A DNA stretch of 64,000 bases from Deltaproteobacteria bacterium (lineage in GTDB: Bacteria > Myxococcota_A > UBA796 > SXON01). Both the position numbers and the translations under genes were made by a program. Positions within the stretch are counted from its first letter, which is position 1, and the number at the start of each line of letters is the position of its first letter. The notes beneath the pieces are model-generated. The model saw only the letters and a list, made by a program, of their open reading frames with translations. It was not told the DNA's origin and did not search any database. The stretch is from contig CANFCK010000002.1 in the NCBI GenBank assembly GCA_947445035.1, positions 1-64,000 of the forward strand, given 5' to 3'. Below, piece by piece: positions 9,696 through 29,598 of the stretch.

Positions 9696-10538
9696 ATGAA
9701 GCCCCTCGTCGAGGTTCTCCTGGCGACGACGGAGTTCTTCAAGGGGCGGGGCATTCCTTCGGCACGCCTGGACGCCGAGCTGCTCATCGGCGACGCGCTC
9801 GGGCTCGATCGGGTGCACGTGTATCTTGCCTTCGACCGTCCGCTTTTGGACGCTGAGCTGAGCGATATCCGCACCCGCGTTCGCCGCCGGGGGGCGCGCG
9901 AGCCGTTGGCGTGGATTGTCGGCCACAAAGAGTTCTACGGTCGCGAGTTCGCGGTGGGGCCAGGGGTGCTGGTGCCGCGCCCCGACACCGAAACCCTCAT
10001 CGAGACGATGTTGCCTCTGTGCCGCGAGGCCGATCCCATCTACGTCGCAGACGTAGGCAGCGGCTCCGGCTGCATCGGGCTGACGTTGGCCGCGGAGGTC
10101 CCGGGCCTCCGGCTCTACGCCATCGACATCGGCGAGGCGCCGCTCGCGTTTACAAGACAGAACACCGAGAGCCTGGGCCTGCAAGACCGGGTCGCCATCC
10201 TTCGCGGGCCGCTGCTGGATGCGGTGCCCCCCTCCCGACCGCTGGACTGGGTCGTCAGCAACCCGCCCTACGTCCCCCGGGGCGACCTGGCCGGCTGCGA
10301 ACCCGAGGTGCGTGACCATGAGCCGCGGCTGGCGCTCGACGGGGGGCCCGACGGGCTCGACGTATACCGGGCGTTGATCCCGGTTGCGGCCGCGCGCGCG
10401 CGGGTCGGCGTAGCCGTCGAGGTCGGCATCGGACAGAGCGGCGCCGTCGCGGCGCTGATGGCGGCGGCTGGGCTGCGGGGCGTGGAGACCCACAAGGATC
10501 TAGGCGGGGTCGAGCGCGTGGTGATCGGCCGGCGGTGA
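9696..10538 (+). CDS. prmC: Release factor glutamine methyltransferase PrmC/HemK
   Basis: VADVGSGSGCIGLTLA SAM motif and SNPPYVPRGDL (NPPY). Confidence 0.93.
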   Translation: MKPLVEVLLATTEFFKGRGIPSARLDAELLIGDALGLDRVHVYLAFDRPLLDAELSDIRTRVRRRGAREPLAWIVGHKEFYGREFAVGPGVLVPRPDTETLIETMLPLCREADPIYVADVGSGSGCIGLTLAAEVPGLRLYAIDIGEAPLAFTRQNTESLGLQDRVAILRGPLLDAVPPSRPLDWVVSNPPYVPRGDLAGCEPEVRDHEPRLALDGGPDGLDVYRALIPVAAARARVGVAVEVGIGQSGAVAALMAAAGLRGVETHKDLGGVERVVIGRR

Positions 10539-11651
10539 CTAGCCCCGATACGTCCGACTCGCCCGCCACTCATCAAGCGCCCAGGCGCCGATCACCGCGA
10601 GCGCGGCGGTGACAGGCACGGCGATGATGATGCCGACGATGCCGAAGACGTTGCCACCGACCAAGATCGCCAGCATCACCACCATCGGGTGCAGACCCAC
10701 ACGATCGCCGACCAAGAGCGGCGTGAGCACGGCTCCTTCGAGGGCCTGGGCCACGATGAGCGTGCCGACGACGGCGCCGACGTGCCAGTCCCCGCCGAAC
10801 TTCAAGAGCGCCAGCGAGACCGCCAGGGCGCCGGTGATGAGCGGACCGATGTAGGGCAGCAAGAAGAGCGCGCCGCCTAGAAGCCCAATGGTGACGGAGA
10901 GATCGATGCCTGAAAGGCGGAACCCGATCGAGTACAGCACCCCGAGGACCACGGCGACCGTCAGCTGCCCCCGCACCCACCCGGCCAGCCGCGCGTCAAT
11001 CTCCGCGGCCAACAGGATGGTCGTGGGCTGAGCACGGAGGGGCACCAACCGCCCCACGAAGGCGACGAGCGCCGGCCAGTCGCGAAGGAGCAAGAACGTG
11101 AAAAGGGGCAGCAGCGACAACGACAAGACCGCCAACAACAGCGACAACCCTCCGCTGGCCGCGCCGGTGAGCCACGCTTGGATGTGAGAGCGCACGTCCG
11201 GCGTCAACTTCTTGAGGTACTCCGGCGCCAAAACGCCGAGTTCGCTGACGTCGACCGGAAGATCGATGCCAAAGCGCCGCTCGAGCCGCGCGACGAAGGG
11301 GCCGAATTCGGTCGCGACCCGCTCCAGATAGGGCTTCAGGTTCTCGGCCAGGTGGGCGATCTGGCGCGCGGCGTCGGGCACGACCCACACCGCAACGACG
11401 GCGACCGCCACAAAAAATGCAAGTGAAACCAAGGCGATGCCGAAGTCGCGCGACGCCCCCCGCGCCTGGATGGCGCTGACCGGCCGGTCGAGCAACCACG
11501 CGAAGACCGCGGAGGTGAAGCAGATCGACACGACGGACCGCGTGACCCAGAGGGTGCCGCCGACGACCACCAGCCCGACGATCGCCCACGCGAGGACCGA
11601 CCAGGACCCCCCGCGCCGCTCGGGCCGACGTATTGGCAGTGGATGGTTCAC
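10539..11651 (-). CDS. AI-2E family transporter (PerM/UPF0118-like)
   Basis: Multi-TM; GFRLSGIDLSVTIGLLGGALFLLPYIGPLITGALAV typical of the family. Confidence 0.85.
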   Translation of the reverse strand: MNHPLPIRRPERRGGSWSVLAWAIVGLVVVGGTLWVTRSVVSICFTSAVFAWLLDRPVSAIQARGASRDFGIALVSLAFFVAVAVVAVWVVPDAARQIAHLAENLKPYLERVATEFGPFVARLERRFGIDLPVDVSELGVLAPEYLKKLTPDVRSHIQAWLTGAASGGLSLLLAVLSLSLLPLFTFLLLRDWPALVAFVGRLVPLRAQPTTILLAAEIDARLAGWVRGQLTVAVVLGVLYSIGFRLSGIDLSVTIGLLGGALFLLPYIGPLITGALAVSLALLKFGGDWHVGAVVGTLIVAQALEGAVLTPLLVGDRVGLHPMVVMLAILVGGNVFGIVGIIIAVPVTAALAVIGAWALDEWRASRTYRG

Positions 11652-12418
11652 GGCGAGGTCACCACGACCACGTTGCCGAACAACAACAGGTCACTCGCGT
11701 CGGCAGCAGCCCGGAGTTCGGCGGCCGCGGCGGCGTCGAACACCAGATCCGTGCCGTTCTGCACCGAGGCCGGGCGCAAAAAAATCGGGACCTCCCCCGC
11801 TCGGCGCGCGGCGATCGGGTCGGCAGGGTCAGAAACGTAGACCACCGGACCGTGCTGACTCGCGGCGTAGGCGGTCATGTCCCCGATTCCGTACAGGTGG
11901 CCCAGCGCGGCATCGAAGAACTCCGGGGCCAGCGCACACTTGAGGTCCAGCCCGCGCGCGTCGACGATGAGCCCCGACGAGCCGCCTTGGCGCGGTGGGC
12001 GTTCGGCGGCGTGAAGGAAGCTCACCAGGGCGGGCCGCAACCAGGTCTGCAACGAAAGTGCCGCGTCGAGCTCGACGGTGCCGCCCTTGTGGTAGCGGGC
12101 CTCGAAGACTTCCCAGGCGCTCAGGTTCGCCTCCAGGCGATCCGCCACCGCATCGGCCGCATCGAGCAGCTCGCCGGCAAGGCGACTACGGTCGACTCGC
12201 ACCGCGCGGGCGAGCGCCTGGACCCGAGGCTCGAGTTGCTGGCGAGCGTCGCCCTCGGCGGCTTCGAGGTTGTTCATCGCGCCGGTGCTGCCGCCGCCGG
12301 TGCCGTGGACGACCAGCCGCATGTTGGTCCAGTCGATGGCGCCCCCGGCGACCCGCTCCAAAACGGGTTCGACCGCTGCCGCGCCAGGGATGAGGAGACT
12401 GGTGAGCAGGACGATCAT
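11648..12418 (-). CDS. Secreted hypothetical protein (LPP20/FlgT-like)
   Basis: Signal peptide MIVLLTSLLIPGAAA; GLIVDARGLDLKCALAPEFFD...LYG pattern seen in FlgT/LPP20-like proteins. Confidence 0.5.
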   Translation of the reverse strand: MIVLLTSLLIPGAAAVEPVLERVAGGAIDWTNMRLVVHGTGGGSTGAMNNLEAAEGDARQQLEPRVQALARAVRVDRSRLAGELLDAADAVADRLEANLSAWEVFEARYHKGGTVELDAALSLQTWLRPALVSFLHAAERPPRQGGSSGLIVDARGLDLKCALAPEFFDAALGHLYGIGDMTAYAASQHGPVVYVSDPADPIAARRAGEVPIFLRPASVQNGTDLVFDAAAAAELRAAADASDLLLFGNVVVVTSP

Positions 12419-15400
12419 GGAGTCAACACCAGGGCGTCAGCCCGCCCGAAAAGGGAACGTACCCCGTCCACGAGCTTGGGCGTGGCCTTGACTTGCCAAG
12501 CCCGACTCACGCGTAACTCCGCCTCGAACTGGCCCGGCTCCGAAACCACCACGCGCGTCCGACAAGGGCCCGGGTTCTGGACCACCAGCTCCTTCAGCAG
12601 CCTCAACTGCTCGTCACCCAGCTCGTCGACGCGCACGCGCAGCTCGACCTTGCCGATCATCCGCTCGCGCACATCCTCCATCGGCTCGCAGCCCTCCAAT
12701 CGCAGGGAGCGCGGCTTGTCCGGTTGCTGTTCGACCTTGGCGCGAATCGCGAGTGGTTTGCCACAGTCGAGCACGTTGGTGAAGCGGGCCAGTGTGTCTT
12801 TGAACAAGACGGCGTCAATGCTTCCGGAGGGGTCCTCGAAGGTGACAAAGGCCATCGGGTCGCCCTTCTTGTTCCGGATCACCCGCTTGCCGGTGACGAT
12901 GGCGCACAGGCTCAACTCGCGCGCATTGCGAGAAAATCCAACCTCGACCTCCACATACGCGAGGTCAGCGATCGTCTTGTAGCCAAAACCTACGATCTCG
13001 TCGCCAAAGTCGGTGCACGGATGACCGGTGAGGAAGAAGCCGAGCGCTTCCTTCTCCATCTTCATCCGCTCGCCCACCGTCCATTCACCGACGTTCGGGA
13101 GCCGGAAGACCGGCGCAGTCATCGCCGATCCACCGAAGAGCGAGGTCTGACCTGACGCTTTCTGAGCCTGCTCATCTGAGGCCGCCGCCATCGCGTCCTC
13201 GAGGGCCGCGTTGAGTCGAGCGCGAGGCTGACCGAAGCTGTCCATGGCGCCGCAACGAATCAGCGCCTCCCAGACCTTCTTGTTGGCCTTGCGGGCATCG
13301 ACCCGACGCAGGACGTCCATGAAGTCGGTGAACGGCCCGCGGGCGGTTCGTGCCTCTACAATAGCGCCAACAGCGCTCTCACCGACGCCCTTGACCGCGT
13401 GAAGCCCATACCGGATCGCCCCGCGATTGTCGGGACGGACATCGAACCGCCCCACGCTCTGGTTGATCTCCGGGGGCAAAAGTTCGAGCTTCGCGCGGCG
13501 GCAATCGCCACAATACAACAGCACCTTGTCGGAGTTCCCGGCGTCGATGCTCATCAACGCGGCCATGTATTCGGCCCGGTGGTTGGCCTTGAGCCACGCC
13601 GTCTGGTACGAGATGAACCCGTACGCGGCCGAGTGGCTTTTGTTGAAGCCGTATTCGGCGAACTTCGCCAACAAGTCGAAGAGGTCACTCGCCGGCTTCT
13701 CGGGGTGGCTTCGAGCCACTGCACCCTCGACAAAGCGTGCCTTCTGCCTGCCCATTTCGGCGGTGTCCTTCTTGCCCATCGCCCGCCGCAAAAGGTCCGC
13801 CTCGCCCAGGCTGTACCCGGCGAGCACCTGCGCGCACTGCATGACCTGTTCCTGGTACACGATCGTGCCGTAGGTGTTCGCGAGGATCGGTTCGAGCTCG
13901 GCGAAGGGGTACTCCACCGCTTTGCGACCGTGTTTTCGGTCGATGAAGTCGTCGACCATGCCCGAACTGAGCGGTCCGGGGCGGTATAGCGCAACCAGCG
14001 CGACGAGATCGTCGAGACAGTTGGGCTTGAGCTTGGTCAAAAGCCCGCGCATGCCGTCGGACTCGACCTGGAAGACACCGAGGGCGTCCCCGCGGATGAG
14101 CATCTGCCAGGTAGCGGCGTCCTCTTCAGGAACGCGCGCGATGTCGATGCGCTCACCGGTGTTGGCCTCGATCATCGCCACCGCGTCGCGAATCTGATCG
14201 AGGGTCTTGAGGCCCAAGAAATCGAACTTGATGAGCCCGATGGTCTCGGCGGATTTCATGTCGTATTGAACGACGGGGCCACCCTCCGGTGAGTCCCGGT
14301 ACAGCGGGGCCAACTGCACCAGCGGACGGTCCGCAATCACGACGCCCGCCGCGTGGATGCCGGTCTGCCGAACCGCGCCCTCGATGCCGCGCGCCAACGC
14401 AACCACCCGTCGCACTTTGGGGTCACTTTGGATGAGCGCCGCCAGCCTGGGCTCGTCCTTGATCGCGTCGGCGATCGTGATGTTGAGCCGCTCTGGCACC
14501 AACTTGGTGATGCGGTCTGACTCCGGGAAGCTCATGTCGCAGACGCGAGCAACGTCTTTGAGCGCCGCTTTGGCCTGGAGTTTGCCGTAGGTGATGATCT
14601 GGCTGACCAGCGGCGCGCCGTACTTGTCGCGGACGTGCTCGATCACTTCTTCGCGGCGATCCTGGGCGAAGTCGACGTCGATGTCCGGCATCGAGATGCG
14701 CTCGGGGTTCAAAAACCGCTCGAACAACAGGGCAAAGCGCACCGGGTCGATGTCGGTGATGCGCATGGCCCACGCCACCACGCTGCCCGCCGCGCTGCCT
14801 CGACCCGGGCCGACCGGAATGCCTCGATCCTTGGACCAGTTGATGAACTCGGCGACGATGAGAAGATAAGCAGGAAAGCCCATCTTCACGATCATGTCCA
14901 GCTCGTGCTCCAGCCGTTCCAGGTACGGTGGGTGGGCGCCGGCGTCGAGATAGGTCAGGCGTAGCCCCAGCCCGGCGCGGCCATACCAGCGGAAGTACCC
15001 GTCCAGCGTGCCGCTGCCTTGGGGCCGCGGCGAGGGCTGAGGAAAGTCGGCAGCCGGCGGGAAGGCGTCGAGGAAGAAGGCCCAATTGGCGTCGGTGTCG
15101 TCGTCCTTGTCGGGGGGAACCGACGCCGGAAAGTAGTAGACGCCGGTCGGGAAGACGTACTGACAACGCGCGGCCAAGACCTCCGTCAGTTCGATGGCGT
15201 CCAGGTCATCGGGAAAAAGCTCTCGGAGCTCGGCCTCACTCTTGAGGAATTGCTGGTCGGTCTGTTGCCGCGGCCGCTTGGGGTCGGCAAGCGACGCGCC
15301 CATCGCGACGGAGTTGAGCAGGTCGAGCTCGACGACGTCGGTGTTCTTGAGGTAACGAACCTGGTTGGTGACGACGGTCTTGATCCCGAATTTGGAGGAG

Positions 15401-18510: not shown

Positions 18511-18572
18511 TGGATCAATAGTAAAGCAACTTGACCAGTTCGTCAAGGAGCTTGACTTTGTCCCCACCCGCG
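18511..18572. promoter_or_regulatory. Candidate MarR operator array between divergent genes
   Basis: CTTGACCAGTTCGTCAAG and GTCAAGGAGCTTGAC interlocked inverted repeats (CTTGAC/GTCAAG/CTTGAC) at the divergent start region. Confidence 0.55.
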
Positions 18573-19028
18573 GTCCCCGATGCCACGCTTCGCGCAAGCC
18601 TGGGCCAGGTCCTCTTCCGCGCTGCTCGGCTGTACAACGAAGCGGCGCTCCGGCGCGTGCAGGCGGGGGCTGCACCAGACCTCCGCTTCGCCCACACCCA
18701 ACTTTTCCCGCACCTCACCACGTCGGGCACCCGGTCGAGCGCGCTGGCCAAACGTCTTGGCGTCTCGAAACAGGCCGTTGGGCCACTGCTGGACGATCTC
18801 GTCGCGTGGGCGCTGGTCGAGCGCGTGGTGGATCCGACCGACCGCCGCGCCTCGATCGTGCGGCTCACGCCACGCGGCGGCGAGGCGATCGTGCACGGGC
18901 TCGTGGTGCTCGGGGAGATCGAGGCCGACCTCCGGCGCGAGCTCGGGCACGGGGAGTTGGATCGACTCCACGCCACGCTCTTGCAGTTGACCGAGCTCCT
19001 GGCACGGGGCGACGATCGAAGCGGGTAG
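18531..19028 (+). CDS. MarR-family transcriptional regulator
   Basis: GTRSSALAKRLGVSKQAVGPLLDDLVAWALVERVVDPTDRRASIVRLTPRG winged-helix pattern. Start uncertain (TTG at 18531 or downstream). Confidence 0.85.
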   Translation: MTSSSRSLTLSPPAVPDATLRASLGQVLFRAARLYNEAALRRVQAGAAPDLRFAHTQLFPHLTTSGTRSSALAKRLGVSKQAVGPLLDDLVAWALVERVVDPTDRRASIVRLTPRGGEAIVHGLVVLGEIEADLRRELGHGELDRLHATLLQLTELLARGDDRSG

Positions 19029-19031
19029 GTT

Positions 19032-19673
19032 GTGCCGGTGATCGCGCTTCCGATTTTCATCGTCGCCGGGCTCGAGGGTTGGGTGGCCACGCTGCTCCCC
19101 CTTTGGGCGGCCGTCTGGGTGTACTGGACGGCCGCCTCGACCGCTTTGGTGGGGTTGGCCTACCTCCTGCGGCGCCCGCGGTGGCTCTTGAAGGAGCGGG
19201 GGTCGCGCGGGCTGCTGCTGCCAGTGCTGCTCTTTTCGAGCGCGGTCGCCGCCGCGGCCCAGCGCTTCGGCCTCTCCGAGCGCCAGGAGGTCGTTCCGGG
19301 ATTGTGGGTCGGCGCCTGGCCGCGTCGCGGGGCCCCCGGCTTCGCCCAGCTGGACCTCACCGCCGAGCTTCCCCGCCGGGGTGACGCCGACCATTATCGC
19401 AACATCCCCATGCTCGATGGCGCGGGGCCTCGACGCGAAGACTGGGAGGCGGCGGTAGACCAGGTGGTGGCGTGGCGACAACAGGGCGCCTCGGTGCTGG
19501 TGCACTGCGCGTACGGCCACGGGCGTAGCGTCGCAGTGATCATGGGGGTGCTGGTCCGTGAGCGGCTCGCGCACGACGCGCCGAGCGCGCTGGCGATCGT
19601 GAGGCGGGTGCGGCCGCGGGCGAGGCTGGCTCCCGGGCAGCGGCAGCTGATGAAGGAGCTGCTCGGCGGGTGA
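19032..19673 (+). CDS. Membrane-anchored dual-specificity-type protein phosphatase
   Basis: N-terminal TM helices; catalytic loop VLVHCAYGHGRSVAVIMGVLV (HCx5RS). Confidence 0.8.
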   Translation: MPVIALPIFIVAGLEGWVATLLPLWAAVWVYWTAASTALVGLAYLLRRPRWLLKERGSRGLLLPVLLFSSAVAAAAQRFGLSERQEVVPGLWVGAWPRRGAPGFAQLDLTAELPRRGDADHYRNIPMLDGAGPRREDWEAAVDQVVAWRQQGASVLVHCAYGHGRSVAVIMGVLVRERLAHDAPSALAIVRRVRPRARLAPGQRQLMKELLGG

Positions 19674-19693: not shown

Positions 19694-20502
19694 TCACCGC
19701 CCCCCCATCACCCCCCCGAGCTCCCTCGCCGCCCGCTCCGGAAAGACGCCATGCCCGGGCAAGCCCACGGCCTCGGTGGCGAGTCCCAAGCGCAACCGCG
19801 GGCGCAGAACGATCCGCCAGGGGCTCCCCCACTCCACGGTCATCCACACCTCAGGGCCGCCCAGCCACGCCACCATGGCCGCGAGCACCCCCTCCGCGAG
19901 TTGGCCGACAGCGCCAACCTGCGCAGGAAACTCCCCCCCCCGGCTTCCGGCAGCACCCAGACTTCAAAGGGAGCCACCGGCGCCCAGGCCGCGATCGCCA
20001 CGGCGCCATCGACACGGGCCAGTACGCGGCGCCCATCCAGAAGCTCGTCGTCCCGCCAAGCCCGGCCGTCCGTTGGCGCGAGGTCCGTCGGAATCGCAAA
20101 GAGTTCCCAAGCGGGGTGCCGGCCCGGCGCGGCCCGGCGGAGGAGCGAGAACCCGCGAAGACGGCGATCGCGTCGTAAGTCGTCGATACGCTCGGATGCC
20201 AAGAGGAGGCTGTCAGGATCGGCTTCGTCATGCCGGCCAAAAAGCAACTCATGCACGCCCACCGCGTCACGACGAACACCCGGCCGTTCGGCTTTTGGGC
20301 GCACCTCGCCCTCGATCCCCAGCGCAGGCACCGGGTGCGGCACGGCCACAACCCCACCTCGCCGTGCGAGCACCGGACCGGGGTTTCCGCAGGACCAGCA
20401 AGGTGCCACCGGAGCCACCGCCGGCAGGGGCGCGTCGGGCCATGCGTCGTTGATGAGGACAACGACGCCGGTCACTGGGCAGGTGCGGAGCTCCCGCGGC
20501 AT
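19694..20502 (-). pseudogene. GalT/HIT-superfamily-like gene, frameshifted at a G9 tract
   Basis: MPRELRTCPVTGVVVLINDAW...CWSCGNPG...VAVPHPVPALGIEGE...GRHPAWELFAIP...APFEVWVLPEAGG; frame continues after +1 at 19933-19941 as EFPAQVGAVGQLAEGVLAAMVAWLGGPEVWMTVEWGSPWRIVLRPRLRLGL. Confidence 0.55.
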
Positions 20503-20522: not shown

Positions 20523-22190
20523 TCAACTCCACCACGCCAGGTCCAGGTCCTCAAAACACGAGTCGTGCAGCCTGATCTCGTCGAGCTCGGCGAGCGCGAC
20601 CGCGTCATCCGGCACCCCGCGGGCCCTGGCGTCGGCGATGGTCGCGGCTTGGTCGAACCGCGCGAGGTGCTGGCAGAAGCGGCGGTAGCCGTAGTCCACC
20701 GCGCCGCCGGTGTGGATGACGAACTGCCAGTCACTGGCCTGGAGCAGCAGCAGCTCCCTGGCCGCCAGCCGCAACGGCCCCGCGATCAGCTCGCTGCCGC
20801 GCCAATCGAGCCGACCCAACAGATCAAAGAGGCGATCCTCGGCGCCGTGCGCGGCCTCCCACATCCAGCGGCTCTGGTCGTTGAGCCATACGCGGTGGTC
20901 GCCGCCTTCGCCCCAGCTGCCCTCGGGCATCGACACGACCTTGTCGGCCGGCCAATCGGCGAGCAGCGACGAGACCGTGCGGGGGCGCACCGAATCATCG
21001 GCCGCGAAGGCCTTCATCACCTCGCGGATAAACCGCGGCCCCTCATGCCACCAGTGGCCGAAAAGCTCGGCGTCGAAGGGCGCGACCACAACCCCGTGCC
21101 GTCCGGTGCGCTCATGGTACCGACGCAAGATGCTCCGGACCACCGCCACGAAGTGCTGGGCGTGGGTGTAGAGCGCCGATTCGACCTCGGCCGGCTGGTA
21201 GGGCTCCTTGGCCCCCAGGTCGGTGCTCGGCGCCGTGACTCGCCAATAGCGGAGCCCGTCGCGACCGTGACGCTTGTGGAACTCCAAGTAGCGGCCATCG
21301 CCGGGGTAGCCGACCTCGCCGCTCCACACCTGCTCGCTGACCTCCGGGTGCCGCGCAAGCGCAACCAGCCGCCCGGGCCCACCGTCGCTGCTGACCAGGT
21401 GGGGCTCGAGTACGCTGCGCCAGCCCCGTTTGTCGTCCCAGGTGCTCTGATCCCACGCGACCTTGGTGAAGCCGGCGGGGGTCTGGGTTCCTTCGCTGCG
21501 GGCCCCCGCGAAAAGGTGGGCATCCACAATGAAATAGCCCACGCCCTCGTGCGCGAAGACCTCTTCGACGCCGGCGCGGGGGCGCACGCTGCGGTCTCCC
21601 ACGGGCGGTGACCACGGCCCCCCTGGCCGATAGGCACACTCGGGAAGCCAGGCCCCCGCCGGCCGACGCCCCAGATGTTTGCGGCTGGTGTGCACGCCGG
21701 CGCGGACCTGCGCGCGCGCCGAGCGATCGTCGCGCAAAAGCGGCATGTACGCGTGCGTGGCATTGCTGGTCATCAACTCGATGACGCCGGTGTCTGCGAG
21801 CCTGGCAAACGCCTTTGGCAGGTCACGATCCAACGCTTCGAACCGCGCCGCGAGCACCACGAACTGAGCCTCCGCGCGCTCGGCCAACCACGCCAGGTGC
21901 AGTTCGCCGCGCCCCGCCATCTCGGCACGGTCCGCCACCGCCCGGGCGCGCATCTGCTCGAGCCACCTCGGAAAGCCGTCTTTGAACCGCGGATGACCGA
22001 GCTGCTCCAAAAGAACCGGTGTGAGGCCAAGGGTGACCGGACACAGGCCATCGGAAAAGGCCTCCAAAAGCGGCATCCAGCTTTCCGCGGCGGCTTCGTA
22101 GAGCCAGACCTCCCCGTGGGGCCAGTGTCCGTGGTGCAAAACCCACGGCAGGTGGCCGTGCAGCACCAAACAGAAGCTACCGTGCGCCAC
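20523..22190 (-). CDS. Glycoside hydrolase family 57, 1,4-alpha-glucan branching-enzyme type (DUF1957)
   Basis: LVLHGHLPWVLHHG, GAWLPECAYRPGG (catalytic E), APFDAELFGHWWHEGP (catalytic D). Confidence 0.9.
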   Translation of the reverse strand: MAHGSFCLVLHGHLPWVLHHGHWPHGEVWLYEAAAESWMPLLEAFSDGLCPVTLGLTPVLLEQLGHPRFKDGFPRWLEQMRARAVADRAEMAGRGELHLAWLAERAEAQFVVLAARFEALDRDLPKAFARLADTGVIELMTSNATHAYMPLLRDDRSARAQVRAGVHTSRKHLGRRPAGAWLPECAYRPGGPWSPPVGDRSVRPRAGVEEVFAHEGVGYFIVDAHLFAGARSEGTQTPAGFTKVAWDQSTWDDKRGWRSVLEPHLVSSDGGPGRLVALARHPEVSEQVWSGEVGYPGDGRYLEFHKRHGRDGLRYWRVTAPSTDLGAKEPYQPAEVESALYTHAQHFVAVVRSILRRYHERTGRHGVVVAPFDAELFGHWWHEGPRFIREVMKAFAADDSVRPRTVSSLLADWPADKVVSMPEGSWGEGGDHRVWLNDQSRWMWEAAHGAEDRLFDLLGRLDWRGSELIAGPLRLAARELLLLQASDWQFVIHTGGAVDYGYRRFCQHLARFDQAATIADARARGVPDDAVALAELDEIRLHDSCFEDLDLAWWS

Positions 22191-24419
22191 TCACGCGTCC
22201 ACGGAGACGCCAATCTCGACGCGGCGTTTCTCCTGGCCCCACAGCTCCATCGGCCACCAGAAATACAACGCGACCCCCTGAAAAAGGGGCATGACCCCGG
22301 CCGGCGATCGGCTCACCGTCTCGATGGGGAAGTGCCACACGCGCGCGGCCTGCCGCGGGCTGAGGGTGATCCGGTAGCCCCGGTTGGCGTCCACCAACGA
22401 CAGCTTCGTGATCTCGTCAAGCTCGCCGATCTGATCCAAGGGCACCCGAACGCCGCGGCCGGTTTCGAGGAAGGTGTCGGGGCCGAGGACCGAGTCCAGG
22501 TTCAGGTCGATGCCGACGGCGAAGCGCGTGCGCACCGGCTCGTGGTAACGGTTGGCGATCTCATACCGAACTTCAAAGCTTGGGAGATCGGCGTTGAACA
22601 CAAAACGCTTCACCAAGCGGATGAGCCGGAGCGCCGAGCCCTCGACGACATTGCCGTCGCGCGCAAGGTTGACGCTCACCTCAGCCGGGTCCTCGTCCTC
22701 GACCGCGAGCAGCTGGTAGTCGGCGCCGACGAAGTCACCGGCCTCGGCATAGCGCCCGGTCCGGAGGTTCTCGAGCGTCGTCTCCGGCCCGAAAAAGTGG
22801 TCTACGAACGCGCCCCGCACGTGCCGATCGTAGTGCAGCCGGCCCGCGAGGTTGACCCCGGCCATCCGGACCAGGCGGTCACTCTCATCCACGGTGGTCT
22901 CGTCGGTATCGTCTTCGTCGTCGATGATGACCGTGGTCAGCTCGGGCGACGTCTCGATCACCTGGGGCAACTCTTCGCCGCGGATCACCGCATCGTGGTG
23001 AGGCTCGCCCAGGCGGGTGCGGACGTTGAGGATGTTGCCGGGGAGCGCCCAGGTGTCGAGCTCGAAGAGCGAGCCCCCCTGCGAGGGCGACACGAACGCA
23101 CAGAATGTGGGTGTACGAACGATGATCTCGTTGCGACCGTCACCATCGTGGTCGGTCTGCTCGACCACCAGCCGTCCAGCGTCGCCGAGGGCGATGTGCA
23201 CCGCGTACTCGGCGCGGATCAGGTTCGCCCACGCTTGATGGCGAATGTCGCCGAGCTGGGCGCCGATGTCGATGCCGTGGGCGTAGGCGCTTCCGTTCTG
23301 GCCACGGTAGAGCGCCGCCGTGGCCTCCGCAAGGGCGTCGACCATGCCATCGCCGTCTTCGCGGGGGCGTCCATCGGGACGCAACATTGAGCGGAGGCGG
23401 GCCACTTCGCGCGACGTACGCAGCATTCGTCGGTGCAGGCGCAGCACTTCCGGGTACGACGCCAGCGTCGCTTCCCAACCCGGGATGCGCAGAAAAGGCG
23501 CGGCCCGGGCCAGCGAGGGATCGGTGCCACGCCGGATGTCGGCGACGAGGGTTTGCCAGGCCGAACCGGCAGCCCCACCCAGCGCGGCGGCCGCGACCGA
23601 GGATTGAACGCTGGCCGGGGGGTACACCCGGCCCGAGGGCCGGACCCGGTCGAGCACCGTGCCGAAGTGGACCCCTTTGAGCCAGGGCGACGCGTCGTTG
23701 AGCGCGGCGAAGAAACGACGGACCCACGCACGCTCCCCCCCGAACGAACGGGTGGACGAACTGTCGATGGCGGCGCCGAAGTCTTCGCCCTGGACCGAGA
23801 CGGTCAGCACTCGGTGGCCGAGTCGGGAGCGCGAGGCAATCTCGTCGATGATTCGCGCCGGCGAAGCGTTGGGGATCATCCTACTCAAAAGCGGGTCGAC
23901 CCCGAAGAGCGCAAGAATGTTGCCTTCTCGCTCGGCCAGCCAATAGCCGTCGCCGGTGGCGCCGGTGCCGAGCTGCGCCACTTCCAACGCCGAGAACTGC
24001 ACACCAAGTCGACCGAAGATCCTCGGCGCCACCGGGTCCCAGGCGTAACAAGGGAGCCAAGCGCCGCGCACCCGCAGGTCCGCGTGTTGACGCCACCAAC
24101 GCAGCGAAAGCTGCATCTGCCCGACCGCGTCGCGTTCGGGGAGGCTCGGCAGAAGCGCCCCTCCGTGAAGTCCACCCAGGATTTCGATGCGACCGCTGCG
24201 GGCCAGCTTCAGCAGCTGTTCCAGCCGGTCCGGCGCGTGCATCTCCATCCATTCGAGCAGCTGGCCGCTCCAGTGCATCGACACCCGGATCGTCGCGTAC
24301 TCGTCGAGCAGATCGAGCAAGGGGAAGTAGGCACGATCGCACGCCCGTCGCACGTCGGGACCGGTTGCGCCCGGGGGCTGGGTGTTCGCGATGCACAGGA
24401 CGAGCCCGAGATTCTGCAC
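22191..24419 (-). CDS. GH57 alpha-amylase/4-alpha-glucanotransferase-like protein with DUF1926-like C-terminal domains; catalytic residues appear replaced
   Basis: HWSGQLLEWMEMHAPDRLEQLLKLARSGRIEILGG, LLPSLPERDAVGQM, GAWLPCYAWDP (family usually WLTERVWEP), SVQGEDFG (family usually DDGEKFG). Confidence 0.8.
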   Translation of the reverse strand: MQNLGLVLCIANTQPPGATGPDVRRACDRAYFPLLDLLDEYATIRVSMHWSGQLLEWMEMHAPDRLEQLLKLARSGRIEILGGLHGGALLPSLPERDAVGQMQLSLRWWRQHADLRVRGAWLPCYAWDPVAPRIFGRLGVQFSALEVAQLGTGATGDGYWLAEREGNILALFGVDPLLSRMIPNASPARIIDEIASRSRLGHRVLTVSVQGEDFGAAIDSSSTRSFGGERAWVRRFFAALNDASPWLKGVHFGTVLDRVRPSGRVYPPASVQSSVAAAALGGAAGSAWQTLVADIRRGTDPSLARAAPFLRIPGWEATLASYPEVLRLHRRMLRTSREVARLRSMLRPDGRPREDGDGMVDALAEATAALYRGQNGSAYAHGIDIGAQLGDIRHQAWANLIRAEYAVHIALGDAGRLVVEQTDHDGDGRNEIIVRTPTFCAFVSPSQGGSLFELDTWALPGNILNVRTRLGEPHHDAVIRGEELPQVIETSPELTTVIIDDEDDTDETTVDESDRLVRMAGVNLAGRLHYDRHVRGAFVDHFFGPETTLENLRTGRYAEAGDFVGADYQLLAVEDEDPAEVSVNLARDGNVVEGSALRLIRLVKRFVFNADLPSFEVRYEIANRYHEPVRTRFAVGIDLNLDSVLGPDTFLETGRGVRVPLDQIGELDEITKLSLVDANRGYRITLSPRQAARVWHFPIETVSRSPAGVMPLFQGVALYFWWPMELWGQEKRRVEIGVSVDA

Positions 24420-24449: not shown

Positions 24450-25634
24450 CTACAACCCCCGCGCCCAGGCCACGATCACCGCGCGTTCTTCGTCTGTCAT
24501 CCCGGTGAGGTTGCCGAGCGGCATGACCCGCGCTTCGACCTGGCTGGCGATCTTCTCGTGATTGGCCAGGATCGTAGCGCGGTCCTCGAGAGCGAGCCCC
24601 TTGGGCGGCGCCACGAACCCTGGCAGCGTCGGCTCGGTGGCGTGGCAGGGCATGCATCGTGTCGCGATGATTGCTTGCGCTTGGGTCGTCGACACCGGTG
24701 GCGCCCCGCTCTCAGAGGCGGCGGGCCCTGGACGCAACGTCGCCAACGCCACCAGGCAGAGCCCCCCCGCGCCAATCCACGAGACGACGAACGGCCGTGA
24801 GCGGCCCTGCCCGCGCAGATTGAAGCCGTGCCGGACGAGCACCCCGCACACGCAGAGCGCGAGCACGATGAGCCAGCCCCAGTCGCCGCTCCACGCGGCC
24901 GGGTAGTGGTTGCTGACCATCACCAAAAGCACCGGAAGCGTGAGGTAGTTGTTGTGAAGGCTGCGCAATGCGCCCGCGGCACCGGCGCCAAGCGGCGGGG
25001 CGCGCCCCGCGACCATCGCGTCCACCATCGCTCGCTGGCCGGGGATGATGACGAAGAGCACGTTCGCCGCCATGATCGTGCCCAACATCGCGCCGACATG
25101 CATCGCCGCGGCCCGAGGTGCCAGGACCTCAAAGAGCGCACAGGTGCCGGCGACCAAAAGCGCCGAGCCGATGCCCGCCAGCAGGGTGGGACGCTGCCCG
25201 ATCGGTGAGCGGCAGAGCCCATCGTAGAGCAGCCACCCCCCGAGGAGCGAGGCGGCGCCGACGCCGATCGCCGCACCACTGCTGAGCGCGCGCACCGCCG
25301 GATCGACCATCATCGCCGCGGCGTCGTACCAGTAGGTCGTGCCGAGGAGCAAAAAGCCGGTGATCCACGTAAAATAGGCTTCCCACTTGAACCAATGCAG
25401 GATGGCCGGCAAGCGGGCCGGCGCCCCTTCGTACTTGGACACCCGGTAGAATGCGCCGCCGTGGATGGCGAACACCTCGCCTTTGACCGCGGGGTCGGGA
25501 TCGTCACCCCCGGCTGGCCGGATATTGTTGTTCAACCAGTTGAAGTAGAACGACGCCCCGATCCAGGCCGCGCCGGTGACGAGGTGAAACCAGCGCAGGT
25601 TGACCGAGAGCCACTGGAGGAGCTGGGCGTCCAT
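24450..25634 (-). CDS. puuD: Urate hydroxylase PuuD with C-terminal cytochrome c-like domain
   Basis: LLQWLSVNLRWFHLVTGAAWIGASFYFNWLNNN...FKWEAYFTWITGFLLLGTTYW...; C-terminal CMPCH haem motif. Confidence 0.88.
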   Translation of the reverse strand: MDAQLLQWLSVNLRWFHLVTGAAWIGASFYFNWLNNNIRPAGGDDPDPAVKGEVFAIHGGAFYRVSKYEGAPARLPAILHWFKWEAYFTWITGFLLLGTTYWYDAAAMMVDPAVRALSSGAAIGVGAASLLGGWLLYDGLCRSPIGQRPTLLAGIGSALLVAGTCALFEVLAPRAAAMHVGAMLGTIMAANVLFVIIPGQRAMVDAMVAGRAPPLGAGAAGALRSLHNNYLTLPVLLVMVSNHYPAAWSGDWGWLIVLALCVCGVLVRHGFNLRGQGRSRPFVVSWIGAGGLCLVALATLRPGPAASESGAPPVSTTQAQAIIATRCMPCHATEPTLPGFVAPPKGLALEDRATILANHEKIASQVEARVMPLGNLTGMTDEERAVIVAWARGL

Positions 25635-25647
25635 CAGAGGCACGGTA

Positions 25648-25830
25648 TCAGTCGCACCGCTCCCCCGTCCACGCCTCCAAGGCAAGGCGGCGCAGCTGGT
25701 GATGCCCTACCGAGGTGGGGTGGGCGCAATCATCGCTCACCCAGCTGTCCCGGCTGTCGATCCCGTTTCCGCAGAACCACCCGTGATAATCCAGTAGTTC
25801 TACGCGTTCCGAGGCGGCGGCGTCGGCGAG
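25648..25830 (-). pseudogene. SGNH-hydrolase C-terminal remnant
   Basis: RVELLDYHGWFCGNGIDSRDSWVSDDCAHPTSVGHHQLRRLALEAW; DxxHP..GH C-terminal block with no catalytic N-terminus. Confidence 0.4.
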
Positions 25831-25919
25831 GGGATCGGGCATCAGCGCCAAACCCCGCGCGCCCACGAACGAACGAGATGCGCTTCCGTCGTCCGGCCAA
25901 GATACTTTGGCGCCAGATG

Positions 25920-26675
25920 TCGACGGCTCGAAAGATGCTCCGGGTCGGTGTGGCGCTGGTTTCCACACCGTTCTCGCTCGGTCTGATCGAAGGCTACTTG
26001 CGATTGGCGCGACCCGGAAGCGTCGACGTGCTCCACAGCGCGGCGTTCACCAGGGTTTCGGTACGGCCCGGACAAATGACCGAACTGATTCCGGGCGCCA
26101 CCAAGGGCCACTTCATCGGCGGCGCTGTCCGCATCCATGAGCTGGGGTTCAGGGGGGTCGACGTTGCAACCGCGAAGTCGCCGGGCACGTGAGGCCGTGC
26201 CCCGCCGCGCGGGCGCGCGAAGGCCGATCACGCCGCGTGGAATTTGCTTCGCCGCTCCTGCCTCCTGACGGCCGGCTTTCAGCAACTCAAGGGCTGGTTG
26301 TACGCCCTGCGGGTGCTCAACCTCGAGGACAGCCCGGGATACCGATTCTTACCGTTGGAGGAGCCCTCCGAGCAAAACGAACGCGGCTGGAGCACGAGCC
26401 TGGCGCTCTTGGATGCGACAGTGGCTGAGTCTCAGCGATGCGGGGCGCCCATGGCGGTCACGGTTTTTCCCGTGGAGTTGCAGCTCAGCGAGGAGGCCCT
26501 CGCGATGTATCGGGAGGGAATCGGGGTGCCGCTTGCGGCCACCGCCAGCGATCCCTCCCCACAGCGCCGGCTTCGGGAGTGGGCGGCAGCGCGCGCCGTT
26601 CCGCTCGGCCACCGACGCGCCGCCGAGACGCTGGAGTCCGAGCTGACGAGGCTGGGCTTGCTCGGCGGAGACTGA
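25920..26675 (+). pseudogene. SGNH-hydrolase-like remnant with in-frame stop and missing catalytic blocks
   Basis: LGLIEGYLRLARPGS...IHELGFRGVDVATAKSPGT then TGA at 26190-26192; same frame continues to ...LLTAGFQQLKGWLYALRVLNLEDSPGYRF...GHRRAAETLESELTRLGL. No GDS block. Confidence 0.5.
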
Positions 26676-26706
26676 CCGGTCCCCGGCCGCCGGGTTACAG
26701 CAACCC

Positions 26707-28053
26707 ATGTCAGACCGCGTGCTCGCCAGTCGCCGCGTCCTCTGGGACGGCCAACTCATCCGCGGGGCGGTCACCGTACGGGGCGGCATCATCACGGCGG
26801 TAGAGCCCGGTCCGGCGCCGCAGCGCTCCCTGGACCTCGGCCACGACGTGCTGATGGCGGGCTTGGTCGACACGCATGTGCATGTCAACGAGCCGGGGCG
26901 CACCGACTGGGAAGGGTTTCGTTCGGCAACCCTGGCGGCGGCCGCCGGAGGGATCACCACGCTGGTGGACATGCCGCTCAACACGACCCCGGTCACCACG
27001 ACCGTGCAGGCGCTCCACACCAAGATCGCGGCGACGGACGGCCAGCTTTTCGTGGACATGGCCTTCTGGGGCGGCGTCGTGCCGGGCAACGCCGCCGAGC
27101 TCGTCCCGATGGTCACCGCCGGTGCGCGCGGCTTCAAGGCCTTTCTCTGCCCCAGCGGCATCGATGACTTTCCCGCGGTTACCGAGGCTCATCTTCGCGA
27201 GGTCATGCCCATCCTGCGCGGTGCGGGCGTGCCCCTCCTGGTCCACGCCGAGCTTGAAGGCGAGCTGTCCTCGGTCGCGTCCGACGCCGACCCTCGCGCC
27301 TACGCCACCTACCTGCACAGCCGCCCCAAGGAGCTCGAGGATCGAGCGGTTGCGCTGATCGTAGGGCTGGTCCGGGAGACCGGGTGCCGCGCCCACATCG
27401 TCCACTTGTCGTCAGCCACCGCGTTGGACATCGTGCGCGCCGCCAAGGCCGAGGGCCTGCCGCTGACCGCGGAGACCTGCCCGCACTACCTGTGCCTGCG
27501 CGCGGAAGAGATCCCGGACGGCGCCACCGCCTACAAGTGTGCGCCCCCCATTCGCGAAGACGCCAACCGGGACGCGCTGTGGGCCGCGCTTGCGGACGGC
27601 ACCTTGGACTTCGTGGTCACCGACCACAGCCCGTGTACACCGGCGCTCAAGCGGCTCGACAGCGGCAGCTTCACCGACGCCTGGGGTGGCATCGCGTCGC
27701 TGCAGTTGGGCCTGCGCGCCGTTTGGACCGAAGCCCACCGCCGTGGCATCGGGCAGACGATCCTGGGCAAGTGGATGGCGGTCGGGCCGGCGGCGTTGGC
27801 AGGCTTCCCCGACCGCGGCAACCTGAAGGTCGGGGCGCGCGCGGACCTCTTGCGGTGGCGGCCCGAGTCTGGGGGGGTGGTCGATTCTGCGTCGCTCCTG
27901 CACAAGCACCCCACCACCCCGTACGCGGGCCTGCACCTGGACGGCGAGATCGTCGACGTCTGGCTGGCCGGCGACCGCATCGTGGAAAACGGGGCCCCGC
28001 TGGGCCGACCGCGCGGACGGCCGCTCCTCCATCCGCGCGGCACCCGCGGCTAG
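26707..28053 (+). CDS. allB: Allantoinase
   Basis: GLVDTHVHVNEPGRTDWEGFRSATLAAAAGGITTLVDMPLNTTPVTT; GFKAFLCPSGIDDFP; VTDHSPC. Confidence 0.93.
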   Translation: MSDRVLASRRVLWDGQLIRGAVTVRGGIITAVEPGPAPQRSLDLGHDVLMAGLVDTHVHVNEPGRTDWEGFRSATLAAAAGGITTLVDMPLNTTPVTTTVQALHTKIAATDGQLFVDMAFWGGVVPGNAAELVPMVTAGARGFKAFLCPSGIDDFPAVTEAHLREVMPILRGAGVPLLVHAELEGELSSVASDADPRAYATYLHSRPKELEDRAVALIVGLVRETGCRAHIVHLSSATALDIVRAAKAEGLPLTAETCPHYLCLRAEEIPDGATAYKCAPPIREDANRDALWAALADGTLDFVVTDHSPCTPALKRLDSGSFTDAWGGIASLQLGLRAVWTEAHRRGIGQTILGKWMAVGPAALAGFPDRGNLKVGARADLLRWRPESGGVVDSASLLHKHPTTPYAGLHLDGEIVDVWLAGDRIVENGAPLGRPRGRPLLHPRGTRG

Positions 28054-28065
28054 ACCGGAGTCCTC

Positions 28066-29598
28066 ATGGCCGAAGTCCTCGGAGCCCCTGCCCTGTTCAC
28101 CGGGCTTGTCGATCTGGCTTCGGCGCAGCTCGGCGGGGTTGCACTTTTGAGCAGCGATGACTTCTTTGCCGACGCCGGCCGTTTGCTCCTGCGCGAACCC
28201 GCGGCCTTCGACCCCAGCACGTACACCGACCGCGGCAAGGAGATGGACGGGTGGGAGTCCCGGCGCAAGCGAGTGCCCGGTCACGACTGGTGCATCATCC
28301 GGCTCGGCGTGCCGGGGCGCATCCGGGCGGTCGACATCGACACCGCGCACTTCCTCGGCAACCACGCTCCTTTTGCCTCGGTCGATGCCTGTGACGTGCC
28401 CGCGGACACCACCCCCGACGCCCTTCGCGATTCGACGCCGTGGACCAACCTCTTTGCCGAAACGCCGCTCAAGCGTGGGTCCAGCAACGTGCAGGCCGTG
28501 GCCTCGGACCGCGTCTGGACCCACGTGCGCCTCAACATGATCCCCGACGGCGGCATCGCCCGGCTGCGCATCTACGGCGAGCCCGCTCCCACCGTGCTTT
28601 CAGGGCAGATCGACCTTGCCGCGATCGAGCGCGGAGGCGTCCCCCTGGTGGCAAGTGACAGCTTCTTTTCGCCGATGACCAACCTCGTCCTCCCCGGCGA
28701 ATCGCCGATCATGAGCAACGGGTGGGAAACGCGGCGCAGCCGTCCCCCGGGAATGGACTGGATCATCCTCCGTCTCGGCCAGGCGGGCGTGCTCAGCCGG
28801 CTGACGCTCCAGACCCACCATTTCAAGGGCAACTACCCGGATCGTGCCGCGGTGGACGCCTTGCACTGGCCCGGCGCTCCCCCGTCGAAGCTGGTCGATC
28901 ACCCTGATTGGACCGAGATCCTTCCCCTCTCTCGTCTGCGCGCGCATGACAGTCGCGACTTCGAGCTTCAGGGCAGCGGCCCATGGACCCATTTGCGGCT
29001 CCGCATCGTGCCGGACGGCGGCATCTCCCGCCTGCGGGCGTTCGGCACGCCTTCGGTGGCGCCGGGCCCTGACCCGTGGGGGTTGGTGGCGCACCTCAAC
29101 GCCCTATCGAGCGAAGCGGCCCGTGAAGCGCTCGCCCGCGCGTGCGGCAGTCGCCGTTGGGTCGAAGCCATGTTGGCGCTGCGCCCATTTTCGTCGGAAA
29201 CCCAGATCTTCGGCGAGGCCGACAACGTCTGGTGGCACCTCGGGGACGGCGACTGGCGAGAAGCGTTCTCGCACCACCCGAAGCTCGGCGCCGATGTCAC
29301 GGCCCTCCGCGAAAAGTTCGCCGCGACCGCTGCCTGGAGCGCGGCCGAGCAGGCGGGCGTCGCGGCGGCATCCGAAGAGACCCTCGAGGTGCTGGCTGCC
29401 GGGAACGCCGCCTATGAAGCGCGCTTCGGGATGATCTTCATCGTCTGCGCCTCGGGGTTGAGCGCCGAGCAGATGCTGGACCGGCTGGACGACCGCATCG
29501 ACAACGAGCCGGCTGCCGAGCTGCGAATTGCCGCGGGCGAGCAGGCGAAGATCACCCGACTCCGCCTGGCCCGGTTGGTTCGCGGCGATGCGTCGTGA
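28066..29598 (+). CDS. Allantoicase fused to OHCU decarboxylase
   Basis: Two allantoicase repeats (DGWESRRKR...HDWCIIRLG; NGWETRRSRPPGMDWIILRLG) followed by a UraD-like domain (FSHHPKLGAD, EQAGVAAASEETLEVLAAGNAAYEARFGMIFIVCASGLS). Confidence 0.9.
   Translation: MAEVLGAPALFTGLVDLASAQLGGVALLSSDDFFADAGRLLLREPAAFDPSTYTDRGKEMDGWESRRKRVPGHDWCIIRLGVPGRIRAVDIDTAHFLGNHAPFASVDACDVPADTTPDALRDSTPWTNLFAETPLKRGSSNVQAVASDRVWTHVRLNMIPDGGIARLRIYGEPAPTVLSGQIDLAAIERGGVPLVASDSFFSPMTNLVLPGESPIMSNGWETRRSRPPGMDWIILRLGQAGVLSRLTLQTHHFKGNYPDRAAVDALHWPGAPPSKLVDHPDWTEILPLSRLRAHDSRDFELQGSGPWTHLRLRIVPDGGISRLRAFGTPSVAPGPDPWGLVAHLNALSSEAAREALARACGSRRWVEAMLALRPFSSETQIFGEADNVWWHLGDGDWREAFSHHPKLGADVTALREKFAATAAWSAAEQAGVAAASEETLEVLAAGNAAYEARFGMIFIVCASGLSAEQMLDRLDDRIDNEPAAELRIAAGEQAKITRLRLARLVRGDAS

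Follow-up and report, generated by a model that had tools for sequence, protein, structure and literature searches.

It is not settled why cells retain glycan enzymes that have lost their activity; plant ISA2 is a well-studied case. A locus of uncultured myxobacteria-like bacteria raises the question again: a GH57 protein lacking both catalytic residues of its family is encoded directly upstream of an intact GH57 branching enzyme, followed by a further dead protein. A sequence-only reading of the locus had proposed that the GH57 protein is catalytically dead and serves the branching enzyme as a glycan-binding scaffold or regulator. Coordinates below refer to the window, the whole 64,000-nucleotide stretch of DNA that was analyzed.

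Fold and active site of the GH57 protein

The open reading frame, its coordinates, its strand and the motifs quoted in the sequence-only reading were all found in the sequence. The features of this gene are as follows.

22191-24419, minus strand: GH57 4-alpha-glucanotransferase-like pseudoenzyme, 742 aa (Pfam, PDB match, AF2 model, tree)
24381-24389, minus strand: codons of A11-N12-T13, which align with the invariant HNH/HxH motif (TLGT H11, H13; alignment)
24048-24050, minus strand: codon of C124, which aligns with the GH57 nucleophile Glu (TLGT E123; alignment, sequence)
23790-23792, minus strand: codon of Q210, which aligns with the GH57 acid/base Asp (TLGT D214; alignment)

The protein is laid out as a GH57 barrel, a middle domain and an AmyA-gluTrfs_C beta-sandwich. 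Pfam assigned the barrel to PF03065 (57 bits against a cut-off of 21.2) and the C-terminal domain to PF09095 of 4-alpha-glucanotransferases (160 bits), while the middle domain matched PF09094 at 24.8 bits, slightly below its cut-off of 27. Residues 3-725 aligned by phmmer with the 4-alpha-glucanotransferase of T. litoralis (TLGT; PDB 1k1w, E = 8.8e-52). An AlphaFold (AF2) model, built on an alignment of 22 homologues, had a mean pLDDT of 79 and a pTM of 0.74, and Foldseek matched it to 1k1x with TM scores of 0.79 (query) and 0.91 (target). The above-threshold Pfam match and the succession of barrel, helical and beta-sandwich domains place the protein in GH57 at the level of fold, and the three-part fold is shared with TLGT (1k1w/1k1x/1k1y) over the full length. 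An overlay on the T. litoralis enzyme had been suggested as a check on the loss of E123 and D214; the model matches 1k1x, and the equivalents of both residues are gone in the sequence alignment.

The difference from TLGT lies in the residues that a 4-alpha-glucanotransferase needs: the protein lacks equivalents of E123, D214, H11, H13, W221 and W357. The nucleophile Glu of CSR-3 (WLTERVW) is C124, the acid/base Asp of CSR-4 (DDGEKFG) is Q210, and HxHQP of CSR-1 has become A11/T13; the phmmer alignment sets W221 opposite A217 and W357 opposite A380. The proposed loss of the two catalytic residues was thus borne out, and the damage proved broader, with the HxH motif and acceptor-site aromatics gone as well.

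We surveyed these positions in 20 proteins from the taxonomic family and in 40 intact relatives. At the position of H13, all 20 family members carry Thr where all 40 relatives carry His, and W221 is replaced by Ala throughout the family (Trp in 37 of the 40 relatives). The W357 position holds Val or Ala in 20/20, and Y183, F187 and Y272 of TLGT are likewise replaced. The old acid/base position carries R, P, A, Q, L or S, and the nucleophile position is Y in 11 members, F in five, C in two, H in one and Q in one. The Glu-to-Cys change reported in the sequence-only reading therefore holds for C124 here, but with 2/20 Cys is not a family feature; a conserved catalytic Cys was ruled out, the position being mostly Tyr or Phe. 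Other residues are fixed: the equivalents of H49, E79, W120, W126 and E216 (E212 in this protein) are invariant, and T13, G86, A217 and V380 are newly fixed in the family.

Chance or misread motifs were ruled out by the full-length alignment, the model and the homologue survey, and sequencing error at the catalytic codons by the same class of losses in relatives from independent assemblies. To judge from its sequence, the protein is a pseudoenzyme whose pocket has been rebuilt. The acceptor of a Pyrococcus relative is bound by the aromatics Y181, F185 and W219, and the W219A substitution kills activity (PMC9582752); by their numbering, Y183, F187 and W221 of TLGT would be the counterparts of these residues. 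It is doubtful that glucan binds in the canonical cleft, because H13, Y183, F187, W221, Y272 and W357 have been exchanged, in several cases for the same residue throughout. The idea of a glycan-binding scaffold consequently fared poorly, since the residues with which 4-alpha-glucanotransferases hold glucan are replaced and the classical cleft is stripped.

A single clade under purifying selection

A homologue of the dead GH57 protein was present in 34 of 38 sampled relatives, and every same-family homologue whose gene covers that part lacks both catalytic residues, which argues that the catalytic loss is not due to chance. In trees built without the catalytic columns, dead and intact GH57 proteins were split with 100/99 support (28 versus 20 rows), and with 95/90 support in a wider sample (32 versus 26 rows). 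Sister clades of the dead proteins carry different remnants of the catalytic pair (LD, YD, HD and ES). Decay within the clade seems to have been stepwise and parallel, because sub-branches keep either the Glu without the Asp or the Asp without the Glu.

Nei-Gojobori estimates of dN/dS for the dead barrel ranged from 0.036 to 0.22 against relatives at 95 to 60% identity, and those for the live branching enzyme covered a similar range (0.064-0.22); because dS nears saturation in the more distant pairs, these ratios are precise only for the closest ones. Purifying selection on the dead barrel thus appears equal in strength to that on the adjoining live enzyme. The description of the protein as a catalytically dead GH57 can accordingly be extended to that of a conserved pseudoenzyme, one clade in which the whole active site has been dismantled under apparent purifying selection.

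These data bear on two alternative readings. The gene might be a functionless, decaying relic of a former operon enzyme, as the relaxed catalytic positions, the supply of the reaction by a GH77 enzyme and the frameshift in the adjoining GalT-like gene in the window (both described below) would allow. We consider this very improbable: reading frames in the family are open at full length, apart from fragments at contig edges; dN/dS over the whole protein (0.04-0.25) strongly disfavors a relic; and the newly fixed residues are not noise. Alternatively, the protein might still be an enzyme that acts, perhaps on a different substrate, through another catalytic apparatus (e.g., E79, E212 or a new pair). 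The strength of purifying selection and the retention of E79 and E212 in all 20 family members are compatible with this reading, but the old nucleophile and acid/base positions vary freely within the family, no other Glu/Asp pair is conserved at the two catalytic positions, and the remnants in the sister clades resemble catalytic decay. An altered enzyme is, in our assessment, improbable, if less so than a relic.

GH77 and the glycogen enzymes of the genomes

All 31 genomes with a scorable dead GH57 encoded a GH77 amylomaltase, and none of the nine with a canonical live copy did, a contrast that amounts to a comparison across a single evolutionary event and not 40 independent ones, since the dead copies form one clade. 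GH77 was also present in three more genomes with an atypical ED-type GH57 protein, and absent from one genome with a mere fragment of the GH57 gene. On the strength of this distribution, GH77 probably took over the former 4-alpha-glucanotransferase reaction, a point absent from the sequence-only reading. Three 4-alpha-glucanotransferase homologues of another family (L146, L148 and L149, family f13) keep Glu and Asp, have the aberrant motifs YGHGH and AGDVxRL, and likewise occur with GH77; they are perhaps another altered line.

The genome that contains the window encodes GlgA, an alpha-glucan phosphorylase, a GlgX-like debranching enzyme and MalQ. A search of this assembly, which is 92% complete, found no GlgB-type C-terminal domain, and the GH57 branching enzyme may for this reason be the sole brancher of the genome. 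A third GH57 protein of the same genome (L040, 1680-3434; 584 aa), with the motifs HMHQP, PSEGS and LDGENPWE, is apparently a different, live, amylase-type enzyme.

The adjoining branching enzyme

The gene that follows the pseudoenzyme encodes the live member of the locus.

20523-22190, minus strand: GH57 1,4-alpha-glucan branching enzyme (P0002), 555 aa, catalytic Glu and Asp intact (Pfam, PDB, motifs)

Its GTG start at 22190 abuts the TGA of the pseudoenzyme gene (22193-22191) with zero intergenic bases. The protein contains PF03065 and PF09210 (BE_C), matches PDB 5wu7/3p0b with E of about 1e-106, and carries both catalytic motifs intact (WLPECAYRP and FDAELFGHWW); it resembles the GH57 branching enzymes of Thermus thermophilus (3p0b/1ufa) and Pyrococcus horikoshii (5wu7) closely along its full sequence. 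The two catalytic residues together with the BE_C domain identify it as a GH57 glycogen branching enzyme, with bit scores below the NCBIfam equivalog cut-offs (429 bits against 920 for the Thermus-type model). Both residues are kept in its homologues wherever the motifs align, including every locus with a dead partner; the sequence-only reading was correct in calling this neighbor intact, and the motif survey of homologues ruled out that the branching enzyme is dead as well. A stretch at 21390-21560 (about ARSEGTQTPAGFTKVAWDQSTWDDKRGWRS) is extended relative to the characterized GH57 branching enzymes, where it is shorter, and is a possible contact site for a partner.

A conserved trio of genes

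Throughout the taxonomic family, the dead GH57 and an intact GH57 branching enzyme stay paired, the branching enzyme gene following directly in nearly all loci, and this conservation supports the earlier proposal that the dead protein is a partner of the branching enzyme. Across 18 family loci, the dead-live-dead trio comprised the only recurrent gene families; other neighbors vary between genera, and further conserved operon genes were sought in these loci and rejected. The complete trio was found in 17 of 63 named loci, besides the window, where the third gene is frameshifted, and L024. In L043 and L063 the third gene is absent though the contig continues, and several more loci are truncated at contig ends. 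In one close relative, the family member L044, a 3.8-kb insertion (10230-14006) separates the dead GH57 and branching enzyme genes; it holds opposite-strand genes for DxDxDG-repeat proteins.

The dead GH57 does not adjoin the branching enzyme in L026, L027, L029, L034, L071 and L133-L137, loci from other families within the order and class, so a branching enzyme neighbor is not obligatory by position. Still other groups have a live 4-alpha-glucanotransferase gene, with a branching enzyme gene behind it in L068, L085 and L094 and a live GalT homologue in L074 and L076, which shows that the gene order predates the catalytic loss.

The third gene encodes a GalT-fold protein

The last member of the trio is encoded downstream of the branching enzyme.

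19694-20502, minus strand: ADP-glucose-phosphorylase/GalT-fold protein, catalytic HxH changed to HPA, second pseudoenzyme (profile, fold, motif survey)
19933-19941, minus strand: run of nine G (C on the plus strand) at which the GalT-like reading frame changes (sequence, comparison with relatives)

The gene begins as an open reading frame at 19840-20502 and continues to 19694 in another frame. Relatives read through the site of the nine-G run in a single unbroken frame, and the change in the window is either an assembly error or a real mutation. A direct search of the protein gave no Pfam match, and a search of the genome (assembly 92% complete) gave no GalT Pfam match. Profile-profile comparison nevertheless linked the family to GalT homologues from live-4-alpha-glucanotransferase loci (probability 99.8, E = 8e-30), the family profile matched the Arabidopsis ADP-glucose phosphorylase (1z84/2h39; E = 1e-10), and the model of a close relative's protein (pLDDT 81) had as its nearest folds in Foldseek 1z84 (TM 0.73) and 1zwj (about 0.7). 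The GalT-type fold is hence assigned from the profile and the model of relatives, the window copy being frameshifted.

The third-protein family resembles the Arabidopsis enzyme At5g18200 (1z84, 2h39) and GalT in fold and profile but differs in its catalytic residues: the nucleophile His (His186 of HSH/HPH) is found in 0 of 16 aligned relatives, the window reading HPA, and the zinc-site Cys pair is kept in 12 of the 16 and gone in four. The GalT homologues that adjoin live 4-alpha-glucanotransferases (L074, L076) keep HPH or HSH. The third gene thus encodes a second pseudoenzyme, of which the sequence-only reading made no mention.

A predicted branching complex with dead subunits

We propose that the live GH57 branching enzyme and the two dead accessory proteins form a three-gene module in which the dead GH57 acts as a non-catalytic partner, a proposal for and against which we see about equal weight. 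Fold, catalytic losses, conservation, purifying selection and the synteny of the trio are observed; what they suggest is a complex for glycogen synthesis whose inactive subunits probably have a regulatory or structural role. Both the complex and its function are predicted on the grounds of synteny and of ISA1/ISA2 in plants. The two dead proteins would descend from a GH57 4-alpha-glucanotransferase and an ADP-glucose-phosphorylase/GalT-fold protein, the former perhaps having lost catalysis because GH77 amylomaltase assumed its reaction. By analogy with ISA1/ISA2, the dead GH57 would bind the branching enzyme as a non-catalytic subunit and might set its stability, its chain-length preference or its placement on the growing glucan, and the dead GalT-like protein would possibly sense a nucleotide sugar (ADP-glucose). 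A fuller version, put forward tentatively and with well under an even chance of being right, is a bacterial branching complex of a live GH57 enzyme, a glucan-side subunit (formerly 4-alpha-glucanotransferase) and a nucleotide-sugar-side subunit (formerly ADP-glucose phosphorylase). Such a complex would adjust branching to chain length and to the supply of ADP-glucose, and its origin would date from the point at which GH77 made the old reaction dispensable.

The main competitor is that the dead GH57 is a stand-alone sensor or binding protein for alpha-glucan or oligosaccharides and shares the operon for co-expression only. Its sugar pocket may partly remain, given the invariant equivalents of E79, H49, W120, W126 and E216, and the gene stands without the branching enzyme in several families. 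However, the acceptor and donor aromatics W221, W357, Y183, F187 and Y272 are gone, and the pair stays adjacent within the family while all other neighbors change. We regard a stand-alone sensor as possible but rather unlikely.

Relation to known systems

Proteins of this kind were named in 2018 as "4AGT-like proteins", bacterial GH57 proteins near 4-alpha-glucanotransferases with one or both catalytic residues missing, which the authors expected to be non-functional as enzymes (Martinovicova and Janecek 2018, PMC6037648). The dead GH57 described here is similarly placed and has lost both residues, but is 742 aa long against 623 aa for that group of 63 published sequences, to which it is likened by description; the published text contains no operon, partner or selection analysis. 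In plant starch synthesis, the non-catalytic ISA2 works with ISA1 (PMC12510319), and the two cases share an alpha-glucan enzyme with a non-catalytic paralogue retained by selection. In plants the enzyme is a GH13 debranching enzyme and the complex has been demonstrated, whereas here it is a bacterial GH57 branching enzyme with two different dead proteins as predicted partners. A GH57 protein of the myxobacterial Sandaracinus keeps both residues and has no conserved synteny (PMC5010890).

Among open-licence papers, conservation of the trio, its second dead member, the evidence for selection and the GH77 contrast seem to be new. We know of no description of GH57 glycogen branching enzymes with pseudoenzyme partners. 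Domain-based annotation would label the dead GH57 a 4-alpha-glucanotransferase and overlook the third protein entirely. The system is compact and allows a live enzyme to be compared with two dead partners, with live ancestral relatives that share the gene order and with the likely GH77 replacement; the trio therefore offers cheap tests of whether dead carbohydrate enzymes serve as subunits of living ones.

Neighboring genes in the window

On the downstream side of the trio, positions 19032-19673 encode a dual-specificity phosphatase-like domain after a hydrophobic N-terminal stretch, adjoining a MarR-type regulator (18531-19028). Upstream of the module lie purine-degradation genes (24450-29598): a PuuD-type urate oxidase with a C-terminal cytochrome-like stretch (24450-25685, minus strand), an allantoinase-like amidohydrolase (26707-28053, plus strand), and an allantoicase and OHCU decarboxylase fused in one 510-aa open reading frame (28066-29598, plus strand).
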